A program made the translations under genes and the position numbers. DNA of 64,000 nt from Cyanidium caldarium (lineage: Eukaryota > Rhodophyta > Bangiophyceae > Cyanidiales > Cyanidiaceae): the NCBI GenBank assembly GCA_026184775.1, contig JANCYW010000005.1:1-64000 (forward strand). The letters are read 5' to 3'. The notes below the pieces were generated by a model that saw nothing but the letters and a program-made list of their open reading frames with translations, was not told where the DNA came from and did no database searches. Numbering within the stretch: the stretch's first letter is position 1; each line of letters starts with the position of its first letter. Below, one piece after another: positions 26,205 to 30,158 of the stretch.

Positions 26205-28628
26205 ATGGACGCGGGAAATGGCCAGTTGCCGACGACGTTGGAGCAGGTGTCGATACACGCAACGCTGCCGACACCGATAGCCGGTGAGCGGAACGTGCTG
26301 GTGACTTCTGCCCTCCCCTACGTGAATAACGTGCCGCACCTGGGCAATCTGATCGGGTCGGTGCTGTCGGCGGACGTGTACGCCCGCTACTTGCGACAGA
26401 CCGGGGTGAACGTGTTGTTCATCTGCGGCACGGATGAGTACGGCACGGCCACCGAGACCAAGGCGGCCGAGGAGGGCGTCACACCACGACAACTGTGCGA
26501 CAAGTACCACCGGCTGCACCGGGACATTTATCGCTGGTTCGACTTGGGTTTCGACCATTTTGGGCGCACCTCGACGCCGCGCCAGACCGAGATATGTCAG
26601 GAGATCTTCTGGCAGGTATACCACAATGGGTACTGCACGGAGCAGACCGTGGCGCAGTTGTATGATGTGGAGGCGGGCAAGTTTTTGGCCGACCGCTACG
26701 TGCACGGCACCTGTCCGCGTTGCGGCTACGAGGACGCCCAGGGCGATCAGTGCGACCAGTGCGGCAACCTGCTGAACCCGACCGAGCTGGTGCGACCGCG
26801 ATCGGCGCTGACCGGCAGTGTGCCCGAGGTGCGTACCTCGCGCCACCTCTTCCTGGAGCTGCCGCGCCTGGCCGATGCGCTGCAGCGATGGGTCGACGCG
26901 GCAGCCGAGCGCGGCGGCTGGAGCGACAACGCGCTGACCATGACCCGCAGCTGGTTGCGCGACGGCCTGAAACCGCGCTGCATCACCCGCGATCTGCAAT
27001 GGGGCGTTCCGGTGCCGCTGGACGGTTTCACCGACAAGGTGTTCTATGTGTGGTTCGACGCGCCCATCGGTTACCTCAGCATCACCGCGGCGGCATGGAG
27101 TGATAGGGATAGATGGCGCGCCTGGTGGCAGCATCCCGAACAGGTGGAACTGGTGCAGTTCATGGGCAAGGACAATACGCCCTTTCACACGGTCATCTTC
27201 CCGTGCACCCTGTTGGCGACGCAACGGCCGTGGACGATGCTACAGCGCATCTCCACCACCGAGTATTTGAATTACGAGGGCGGCAAGTTCAGCAAGCGGC
27301 GCGGCACCGGCGTGTTCGGGGACAGCGCCGCCGACACCGGCATACCCGCGTATGTGTGGCGGTACTATCTGGTGGCCAACCGGCCGGAGCAGTCGGATTC
27401 GGTGTTCACCTGGGACGACTTGGCCGCCAAGAACAACAACGAACTGCTGGCCAATGTGGGTAACCTGGTGAATCGGACGGTATCGCTGGTGAAGAGCGGC
27501 TTTCAAGGTGTGCTGCCGGCGTTGACGGACGCTCCGGGGTATCAGGCGCGGGAGCGGCGCCTGTTCGCTGCGGTGACCGACGAGCTGCGCGAGTATCACC
27601 GCTGCTTCGGTGACATCGCCCTCAAGGCGGCACTGCGCTGTGCGATGGCGATCGGCAAGCTGGGCAATCAGTACTTGCAGGAGAGCAAGCCGTGGGATCT
27701 GCTGAAAGAGCCGGCGTCGGGACGTGAGCGGGCGCGCACGGTGCTGGCGGTGGCCGCCGGCGTGGTGCGCCTGCTGGCGATCTGCATGGAGCCGTTTATG
27801 GGCGGTGCCTTTGCCGACCGTATCCTACAACAAGTGGGGGTGGTGATCGAGCGTGTTGATGATCGATCGGAAGTGCACCGCATTCCCCACCAGTTGGATG
27901 CGGCGCTGGTGGAGCGGTGGTTCGGCGGGGCGCGAGCGCACCGCTTTGGCGAGCCGTCGCTGTTGTTCCGCAAAATGCTGCCGGAGCAGGTGGCGCAGTG
28001 GCGAGCGCGTTTCGCGGGCGACGCCGCCGCCCGCGCCGAGTCGAAACCGCCGGCGGACGTGTTTCCGCTGGATTTGCGCATCGGTCGCATTACCCGATGC
28101 GAGCCGCATCCGGCGTCGGATCGATTGTACGTGCTGCGCGTTCAACTGGATGAGGCGCAAGGCGAGCGCACCGTGGTGGCCGGTCTGCGCATCGCCTACC
28201 CTGCGGCCGACTCGCTGCTGCAGCGACGGGTGCTGCTGTGCTGCAACATGGAGGAGGCGACGCTGGCCGGCGTGCCCAGTGAGGCGATGCTGTTGGTGGC
28301 CGAGAAGCACGACCACCAACGAGTATTGTGCTGTGACGGGAGTGACGGCGGGGATGAGGCGGCGTGCGGCACCCGAGTATATCCCTACGACGAGGGCGCG
28401 GAGAGCGAGTCGGCGGTGGCGATGAATAGGAGCACGGAAGAGAAACTGGATCGCAAGCGATTTCAGGCGGTGAGCAAGGCGTTACGCATCGACGCCACCG
28501 GCCGCTTGCGGTACCAGAATCGGTACGTGCTGCGCACCGATCCCGGTGGCCAGGCCATCCACGTGGACACCGGCGCACGGGAGGGCGATGAAGAGGCGAT
28601 GCGCTGGCAAGGTGCGAAAATCAAGTAG
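26205..28628 (+). CDS. Methionyl-tRNA synthetase with C-terminal tRNA-binding domain
   Basis: 807 aa from ATG 26205. It charges tRNA-Met, a class I synthetase. The HIGH-type motif is VNNVPHLGNLIG, and the KMSKS motif is represented by GKFSKRRGTG. A zinc knuckle CPRCGYEDAQGDQCDQCG sits between the catalytic halves. After the anticodon-binding helical domain there is an EMAPII/Arc1p/Trbp111-like OB fold starting FPLDLRIGRITRCEPHP and including LRVQLDEAQGERTVVAGL and MLLVAEK. This arrangement, and the lack of a transit peptide, fits the cytosolic enzyme. The gene lies divergent to the TCAIM homolog and its stop is about 60 bp from the permuted tRNA-Lys transcript. Confidence 0.94.
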   Translation: MDAGNGQLPTTLEQVSIHATLPTPIAGERNVLVTSALPYVNNVPHLGNLIGSVLSADVYARYLRQTGVNVLFICGTDEYGTATETKAAEEGVTPRQLCDKYHRLHRDIYRWFDLGFDHFGRTSTPRQTEICQEIFWQVYHNGYCTEQTVAQLYDVEAGKFLADRYVHGTCPRCGYEDAQGDQCDQCGNLLNPTELVRPRSALTGSVPEVRTSRHLFLELPRLADALQRWVDAAAERGGWSDNALTMTRSWLRDGLKPRCITRDLQWGVPVPLDGFTDKVFYVWFDAPIGYLSITAAAWSDRDRWRAWWQHPEQVELVQFMGKDNTPFHTVIFPCTLLATQRPWTMLQRISTTEYLNYEGGKFSKRRGTGVFGDSAADTGIPAYVWRYYLVANRPEQSDSVFTWDDLAAKNNNELLANVGNLVNRTVSLVKSGFQGVLPALTDAPGYQARERRLFAAVTDELREYHRCFGDIALKAALRCAMAIGKLGNQYLQESKPWDLLKEPASGRERARTVLAVAAGVVRLLAICMEPFMGGAFADRILQQVGVVIERVDDRSEVHRIPHQLDAALVERWFGGARAHRFGEPSLLFRKMLPEQVAQWRARFAGDAAARAESKPPADVFPLDLRIGRITRCEPHPASDRLYVLRVQLDEAQGERTVVAGLRIAYPAADSLLQRRVLLCCNMEEATLAGVPSEAMLLVAEKHDHQRVLCCDGSDGGDEAACGTRVYPYDEGAESESAVAMNRSTEEKLDRKRFQAVSKALRIDATGRLRYQNRYVLRTDPGGQAIHVDTGAREGDEEAMRWQGAKIK

Positions 28629-28680
28629 AGCCTCGCGTGTTTTTCGACCTCTCCCACGGAGACCGATATCTTCACGCCCG

Positions 28681-28685
28681 AAAAA
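28681..28685 (-). terminator. Pol III terminator of the permuted tRNA
   Basis: Five Ts on the minus strand, 5 nt after the end of the tRNA 5' half (28691). This is where a Pol III transcript reading the 3' half first and the 5' half second should stop. Confidence 0.7.
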
Positions 28686-28690
28686 GAACA

Positions 28691-28834
28691 CTCGAACCCA
28701 CGACCATCTGATTAAAAGTCAGATGCTCTCCCGACTGAGCTACGTTGGCTGCGCAGGTGCCCGCTCCATCAGCCGAGAGCACCTCACACGACCCGCCTGA
28801 CCTGAGCGCGCGCGCCACACCGCCAACGGTGGGG
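28691..28834 (-). tRNA. Circularly permuted tRNA-Lys(UUU)
   Basis: The two halves of one tRNA lie in reversed order on the minus strand. The 14-nt 3' half (28834-28821: C, CCCAC, CGTTGGC, G73) comes first, then a 71-nt spacer, then the 59-nt 5' half (28749-28691: GCCAACG, TA, D arm GCTC-AGTCGGGA-GAGC, anticodon arm TCTGA-CTTTTAA-TCAGA, variable TGGTC, GTGGG, TTCGAG). Joined, they give exactly 73 nt with a perfect 7-bp acceptor stem, a perfect 5-bp T stem and the 7-nt T loop TTCGAGC. The ends can form a bulge-helix-bulge: 4-bp TTCG/CGAA flanked by 3-nt bulges AGT and TTC, with cuts after two bulge nucleotides giving that loop; the outermost helix is weak. CCA is not encoded. The break lies in the T loop, as in several C. 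merolae permuted tRNAs. Confidence 0.93.
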
Positions 28835-28867
28835 AATTCGTGCGACGATGGGCCGCGCTGAAAACGG

Positions 28868-28875
28868 CATATAAA
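28868..28875 (-). promoter_or_regulatory. TATA-like element upstream of the permuted tRNA
   Basis: Minus-strand TTTATATG about 34-41 nt upstream of the 3' half, the position where plant-like Pol III tRNA genes carry a TATA element. The A box and B box both lie in the downstream 5' half, so upstream signals may matter more than usual here. Positional inference only. Confidence 0.4.
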
Positions 28876-29123: not shown

Positions 29124-30158
29124 ATGGCACTGGCGGGACAGGGCGATCCGCGATGGATCGTTAGGGACATGGGCACGGAGGGCACCAACGTCGGACAGTG
29201 GCACTGGCAGGAGCGGGACGTGTCGCGCTCGGTACAAGAGCGGCTGCGCGCGGAATGGCGCGCAGCGATGAAGGCGCTGGGCGACGGCACCGACTACCAG
29301 TACGAGCTGCTGGAGCCGGTGACCGTGGAGGGCGACTGCGCCCTCTACTGCCGTAAGAGACAGTGGAAGGCGGTGTACGACTGGCACGGCGAAGCGCAGT
29401 GGCGAGTGCAAGGTGCGGAGGCGGAATCTTGCGGCTCCGGTCGGTGCCGCTTTGAGTGGCTGGAACCGGATCCCGAAGTGCAGTTTACGTACGAAGGCGG
29501 CGTGCCGGACGTCTGCCGGGAACGCCTGGAGACGCAAGGCCGAGCGAGCATCACCGCGGCCATGCGGACCGTCTTGGAGAATGTATTGGCGGAGGCACAG
29601 GCCAGCACTGCGGACGGCAACGACGACAATCGCGCAGAGAAGCGCGCCGCGCCCGTTACGCGCGAGTCAGCTACGCCAGCGCCCGTAGCATCGAGGGATA
29701 CCACCGCCGCCGTCGCCGCCGCCTCTGCGCAACCTGGCACCGGTCAGTTCACGTTGCGTGAGACGTTTTTCGCGCCGCGCGCCCTCGTCTTCGACATGCT
29801 CACGCGCCCCGATCTCATCCAACGTTACACCCAGTCCGAGGCGGTATGCACTGCGCCCGAGCGCGGCGGCGCCTTGGCGCTGCTCCACGGCCAAGTGGTC
29901 GGCGAGAACCTGGAATGGCAGCCGCCCGAACGGCTGGTGCAGCGATGGCGCATGAGCGACTGGACGCCCGCCGACCACTACTCCATCGTGCACATGACCC
30001 TCACGGAGCGCCCCGGCGGCGAGACGCAGCTCGAGCTGATGCACGAGAACGTACCCGATGACGCGCTGGAACGCACCCGCATCGGTTGGGTGCAGCAGAT
30101 CTTTGGACGCATGCGCGTGGTGTTCAACTTGGGCGGCACACCGCTTCCCATCGAGTAG
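29124..30158 (+). CDS. AHA1: Activator of Hsp90 ATPase (Aha1)
   Basis: 344 aa from ATG 29124, the usual Aha1 length. Aha1 binds the middle and N-domains of Hsp90 and stimulates its ATP turnover. N-terminal Aha1 domain: VGQWHWQERDVSRSVQERL (the family has NNWHW.E.D), then AVYDWHGEAQW, FEWLEPDPEVQFTYEG. A Thr/Ala-rich linker leads to a C-terminal START/AHSA1 domain: FTLRETFFAPRALVFDML, WQPPERLVQRWRMSDW, HYSIVHMTL and ERTRIGWVQQIFGRM. Both halves are intact. Confidence 0.93.
   Translation: MALAGQGDPRWIVRDMGTEGTNVGQWHWQERDVSRSVQERLRAEWRAAMKALGDGTDYQYELLEPVTVEGDCALYCRKRQWKAVYDWHGEAQWRVQGAEAESCGSGRCRFEWLEPDPEVQFTYEGGVPDVCRERLETQGRASITAAMRTVLENVLAEAQASTADGNDDNRAEKRAAPVTRESATPAPVASRDTTAAVAAASAQPGTGQFTLRETFFAPRALVFDMLTRPDLIQRYTQSEAVCTAPERGGALALLHGQVVGENLEWQPPERLVQRWRMSDWTPADHYSIVHMTLTERPGGETQLELMHENVPDDALERTRIGWVQQIFGRMRVVFNLGGTPLPIE

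Follow-up and report, generated by a model that had tools for sequence, protein, structure and literature searches.

A tRNA-Lys(UUU) gene of the red alga Cyanidium caldarium that is circularly permuted at the T loop

Cyanidioschyzon merolae is a hot-spring red alga related to Cyanidium caldarium. Its permuted tRNA genes, that for tRNA-Lys(UUU) included, were reportedly described by Soma et al. in 2007. Permuted tRNA genes are rare: a 2014 review (PMC3978253) catalogues 34 of them and states that the affected tRNA species are not conserved among organisms. A sequence-only reading of the DNA analysed here had noted that such genes exist in C. merolae, and the table in the same review indeed lists 11 of them, among which are a type IV tRNA-Lys(TTT) gene with the junction at 59/60, a 38-bp spacer and no intron, and an Arg(CCT) gene carrying a 27-bp intron at 14/15. 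The C. merolae genes have an upstream TATA and a T run, their circular intermediates have been detected by RT-PCR, and the mature tRNAs are aminoacylated (PMC3978253). As tabulated there, prasinophyte green algae and the nucleomorph of Bigelowiella also possess permuted genes, 20 of 21 being broken at 37/38 and one at 15/16, with no tRNA-Lys among them; a circular intermediate has been reported for the green algal genes. The archaeon Thermofilum pendens carries permuted iMet and Tyr genes broken at 59/60, with spacers of 7 and 1 bp and additional introns at 37/38 (PMC3978253).

The C. caldarium genome surveyed in this study comprises 8,787,356 bases in 20 contigs. The window, by which we mean the whole 64-kb stretch of DNA analysed, is the start of contig 5 and has a GC content of 65.8%. 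Its first 196 positions are a telomeric array of CCCCCCCATT, with a few variant copies at the inner edge. This repeat is the complement of the telomere repeat AATGGGGGGG, which is given for Cyanidium caldarium 063 E5 in PMC13353863.

Within the window, the minus strand carries the two parts of a tRNA-Lys(UUU) gene in swapped order: a 14-nt 3' part (28834-28821) is followed by a 71-nt spacer (28820-28750) and then by a 59-nt 5' part (28749-28691). The features of the locus, in the order of transcription, and its two neighbours are as follows.

28869..28875, minus strand: TATA-like TTTATAT, probably a Pol III promoter, 41 nt ahead of the first exon base
28834..28840, minus strand: leader side of a relaxed BHB, with CGAA (28840-28837) pairing with TTCG and then a 3-nt bulge TTC (28836-28834); predicted cut before 28834
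28821..28834, minus strand: 3' part of tRNA-Lys(UUU), positions 60-73, with the 3' strands of the T stem and acceptor stem and discriminator G
28750..28820, minus strand: spacer of 71 nt, linking the 3' end of the tRNA to its 5' end; predicted hairpin atop the acceptor stem
28691..28749, minus strand: 5' part of tRNA-Lys(UUU), positions 1-59, with the 5' strand of the acceptor stem, D arm, anticodon arm with TTT, 5' strand of the T stem and T-loop TTCGAG
28681..28690, minus strand: trailer TGTTCTTTTT with a T5 run at 28685-28681; probable Pol III terminator
26205..28628, plus strand: methionyl-tRNA synthetase (Pfam PF09334, PF19303, PF01588), convergent to the tRNA gene and outside it
29124..30158, plus strand: AHSA1-domain protein, Hsp90 ATPase activator-like (Pfam PF08327), divergent from the tRNA gene and outside it

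When 28691 is joined to 28834, a 73-nt sequence results which ARAGORN calls as tRNA-Lys with anticodon ttt. All seven pairs of its acceptor stem and all five of its T stem are Watson-Crick, and its T loop is 7 nt long. No tRNA was called by ARAGORN in the 64-kb window, nor in the linear stretch 28880-28660, and the Rfam tRNA model covers just 28695-28749 (55 bases of sequence against a 71-position model, 38.4 bits), the sole Rfam match of the window at the gathering score. The 3' part thus lies upstream of the 5' part on the same strand, with a spacer linking the acceptor ends, and a canonical tRNA is obtained from the join and none from the linear order. The halves and coordinates proposed in the sequence-only reading are exact, and the canonical join with perfect acceptor and T stems that it described is borne out. 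The halves, the stems and the call on the join confirm that this is a real permuted tRNA-Lys(UUU) gene with a break in the T loop.

The frequency of such layouts by chance was estimated with a scanner that looks for an A-box-like motif, for a piece located 1 to 130 nt upstream that can pair as the acceptor, and for T-arm support. In the 64-kb window the tRNA-Lys gene was the single match. Five 64-kb order-1 simulations and 338,095 reversed real bases yielded no matches. Order-2 Markov sequence modelled on the window (12 Mb, both strands scanned) gave eight matches, each with a 6-pair acceptor and none with 7/7. Chance pairing as the source of the permuted layout was rejected, since the 12-Mb simulation gave weaker matches only.

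At the outer ends of the gene there is a BHB-like motif in a relaxed form, consisting of the T stem, the 4-bp helix TTCG/CGAA and, on the leader side, a 3-nt bulge, with a weak outer helix. The sequence-only reading had described this helix as flanked by two 3-nt bulges. The helix and the leader-side bulge TTC stand, whereas the second 3-nt bulge does not: on the trailer side of the junction no pairing was found across a 3-nt bulge, and in the best fold GTG and CGC form 3 pairs across single-nt bulges. A strict hBHBh', with two 3-nt bulges and both flanking helices, which is optional for the class, was rejected on account of these single-nt bulges and the weak GTG/CGC helix. The predicted position of the cut, after TTCGAG and before CCCCAC, is the one that would yield a 7-nt T loop.

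The pathway published for C. merolae suggests how this gene would be transcribed and how its RNA would be cut, circularised, trimmed at the ends and charged. Guided by the TATA, RNA polymerase III would initiate upstream and terminate in the T run, producing a precursor in the order leader, 3' part, spacer, 5' part and trailer. The two ends of this precursor would be brought together by the T stem and the helix TTCG/CGAA, and the splicing endonuclease for tRNA would cleave after TTCGAG and before CCCCAC. A ligase, perhaps RtcB, would then close the RNA to a circle whose T loop is canonical, from which the spacer would be cut out by RNase P and tRNase Z, followed by addition of CCA. The genome contains two loci of the splicing-endonuclease family PF01974 (E-values of 8.7e-18 and 2.4e-17) and one locus for RtcB (PF01139; 8.1e-162), although the choice of RtcB as the joining enzyme in C. 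caldarium is a guess.

Both elements that had been proposed to frame the unit, a TATA-like element and TTTTT, are present, with TTTATAT running from 28875 and the T5 run occupying 28685-28681. Counting both strands, the window has two occurrences of TTTATAT, one of them the copy upstream of tRNA-Lys. Considering all seven permuted genes recognised in the genome (see below), each has a TATA-like motif 35-66 nt upstream of its first exon. In the 160 bases upstream of 18 other tRNA-model loci, TATA was found at 27 to 107 nt in ten cases and only at 152 nt in one, with none in the remaining seven; the comparison is rough, because introns make the model start differ from the gene start at some of these loci.

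The genome was also searched for an ordinary gene that might supply the same tRNA. The anticodon-arm pattern of tRNA-Lys, allowing up to three mismatches, matched the gene itself and two further places (L024 and L025) with three mismatches each. L024 is by eye a colinear, intron-bearing Thr(TGT) gene. A DNA search of the genome with 28680-28750 returned the self-match only. Neither search turned up a second Lys(UUU) gene, and the notion of a truncated pseudogene accompanied by a copy elsewhere was rejected on these grounds. A further copy with a split anticodon arm or a much diverged sequence may exist. The only other lysine tRNA found is Lys(CTT) (L001). AAA codons are in use, with 21 in five reading frames of the window.

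Examination of the 22 tRNA-model matches, a list of 45 T-arm places and the scanner output revealed at least six more permuted tRNA genes besides that for tRNA-Lys. They are listed below with the lengths of their spacers as placed here and, for comparison, those tabulated for C. merolae (PMC3978253).

L019, C2: Ala(TGC), type IV; spacer 75 against 8 in C. merolae
L095, C9: Arg(CCT), type IV; spacer 24 against 23 in C. merolae; D-arm intron placed at 45 nt
L017/L096, C18: iMet(CAT), type III; spacer 117 against 74 in C. merolae
L052, C10: Leu(CAG), type II; spacer 12 against 9 in C. merolae
L087, C13: Thr(AGT), type II; spacer 73 against 24 in C. merolae
L053, C11: Gln(CTG), type II; spacer 22 against 31 in C. 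merolae

ARAGORN called the expected tRNA from the joined sequence of all seven permuted genes and from none of the seven linear stretches; its acceptance of a join is no proof of the exact base of the cut. The anticodons of the six additional genes were read directly. Their cuts were placed by hand with the C. merolae junction types in mind, so that their match to the precise junctions is in part a product of the placement and is weaker evidence than that of tRNA-Lys. The Arg(CCT) join is 76 nt long with the anticodon at position 37, and the borders of its D-arm intron are therefore probably a few bases off. As placed, the iMet spacer of 117 nt exceeds the longest one in the 2014 review, 74 bp, as tabulated there (PMC3978253). 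The fold energies of the spacers, expressed as z-scores against mononucleotide shuffles, were -1.48 for Lys, which is not clearly beyond the shuffles, 0.48 for Ala, -2.59 for iMet, 0 for Leu, -2.92 for Thr, -0.88 for Gln and -2.49 for Arg; with the scores mixed across the seven genes, no special spacer structure is claimed.

The census was incomplete. All 22 tRNA-model matches and all 45 GGTTCRANYCC places were inspected by eye, and 30 of the 230 CGTTCRANYCG places were screened, by scanner only; a few of the WGTTCRANYCW (51), D-arm (9) and Leu-type D-arm (26) places lie in the surveyed loci. Gln(CTG) and Arg(CCT) were missed by the scanner, which requires an A-box-like motif, and were recognised by eye, Gln(CTG) among the listed T-arm places; Gln(TTG), used as a DNA query, gave the self-match only. 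One of the six distinct genes called by the scanner was false: L093 is by eye a colinear, intron-bearing Phe(GAA) gene whose upstream match is due to chance. By eye, the tRNA genes at L015, L018, L021, L024, L036 and L093 look as if they contain introns, placed in the D arm, in the anticodon arm or in both. Four genes that are permuted in C. merolae, those for Thr(CGT) and Leu(TAA) and two for Gly(CCC), were not found in this incomplete census of the genome.

With the tRNA-Lys(UUU) gene of C. merolae, as described in the table and text of the review, the present gene shares the anticodon, the permutation, the 59/60 junction, the lack of introns, the upstream TATA and the downstream T run (PMC3978253), the cut in C. 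caldarium being placed from the resulting 7-nt T loop. It differs in genus and in the length of the spacer (71 nt versus 38 bp), and expression has been demonstrated for the C. merolae genes, whereas here the gene is known from its DNA. The permuted architecture is common to the prasinophyte and Bigelowiella genes, which differ in the position of the break and in the tRNAs encoded; T. pendens shares the break at 59/60 but differs in the tRNAs affected, the short spacers and the extra introns (PMC3978253). In total, the permuted genes found here match 7 of the 11 in the C. merolae set by anticodon and, as placed, by junction (PMC3978253).

We met no report of permuted tRNA genes in Cyanidium in the open literature, as covered by titles and the beginnings of abstracts. 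Neither tRNA nor permuted occurs as a word in the main text of PMC9812998, which describes the genome, or in that of PMC13062707; in PMC13353863 each occurs once, in the reference to Soma et al. 2007. An earlier report in print is possible. The permuted Lys(UUU) gene itself was already known in C. merolae, whereas a set of permutations common to the two genera was not met in print.

Could the locus be the decayed remnant of a tRNA-Lys gene that was once colinear and now lacks its 3' end, with a coincidental match upstream and an ordinary gene elsewhere supplying the tRNA? The Rfam model does see a truncated tRNA only. However, the two stems shared by the parts hold 12 of 12 Watson-Crick pairs, unequalled in the 12 Mb of simulated sequence, the TATA and the T run bracket the permuted unit, no further Lys(UUU) gene was found, and a Lys(UUU) gene with the identical junction is tabulated for C. 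merolae (PMC3978253), all of which makes decay scarcely credible. We also consider it highly improbable that the gene is permuted yet processed without a circle, the acceptor side being cut first and the parts joined later as separate RNAs. The fold predicted for the precursor already contains the acceptor stem and the spacer hairpin before splicing, which would permit such an order, but circular intermediates have been detected for permuted tRNAs of red and green algae (PMC3978253) and the T arm, which RNase P and tRNase Z recognise, would be complete only after joining.

It is rather unlikely that the gene is truly permuted but that the 59/60 break arose separately in each genus, for example with a T-loop TTCGA favouring a BHB. 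Type IV genes broken at 59/60 in T. pendens indicate that the site has been used repeatedly (PMC3978253), the spacer lengths are unlike, and the comparison with C. merolae draws on a published table. Against this, all seven permuted genes match C. merolae in anticodon and, as placed, in junction (PMC3978253), and separate origin is disfavoured because seven such coincidences are unlikely. Taken as a whole, the locus is very probably a working, type IV (59/60) circularly permuted nuclear tRNA-Lys(UUU) gene of C. caldarium, probably single-copy. Anticodon and junction, compared with the published table, point to its probably being the ortholog of the C. merolae gene.

If this reading is right, the apparent sole gene for reading AAA codons in this alga escapes a tRNA finder that expects colinear order. 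The presence of the identical Lys swap in Cyanidium and C. merolae suggests an ancient origin and retention since then. Whether most of the C. merolae permuted set predates the split of Cyanidium and Cyanidioschyzon, with the breaks fixed since then and the spacers varying in length, appears to us evenly balanced. Were it so, the permutations might have become entrenched, for example through a TATA-driven promoter independent of internal A and B boxes together with a splicing endonuclease of broad specificity; alternatively, they might have been retained for some use of the circle. The main interest thus lies in the apparent conservation of the set of permutations between genera, more than in the Lys gene alone: with seven permutations apparently common to both by anticodon and junction, the genomes of Cyanidiales can test whether permuted tRNA genes are accidents or a stable feature.
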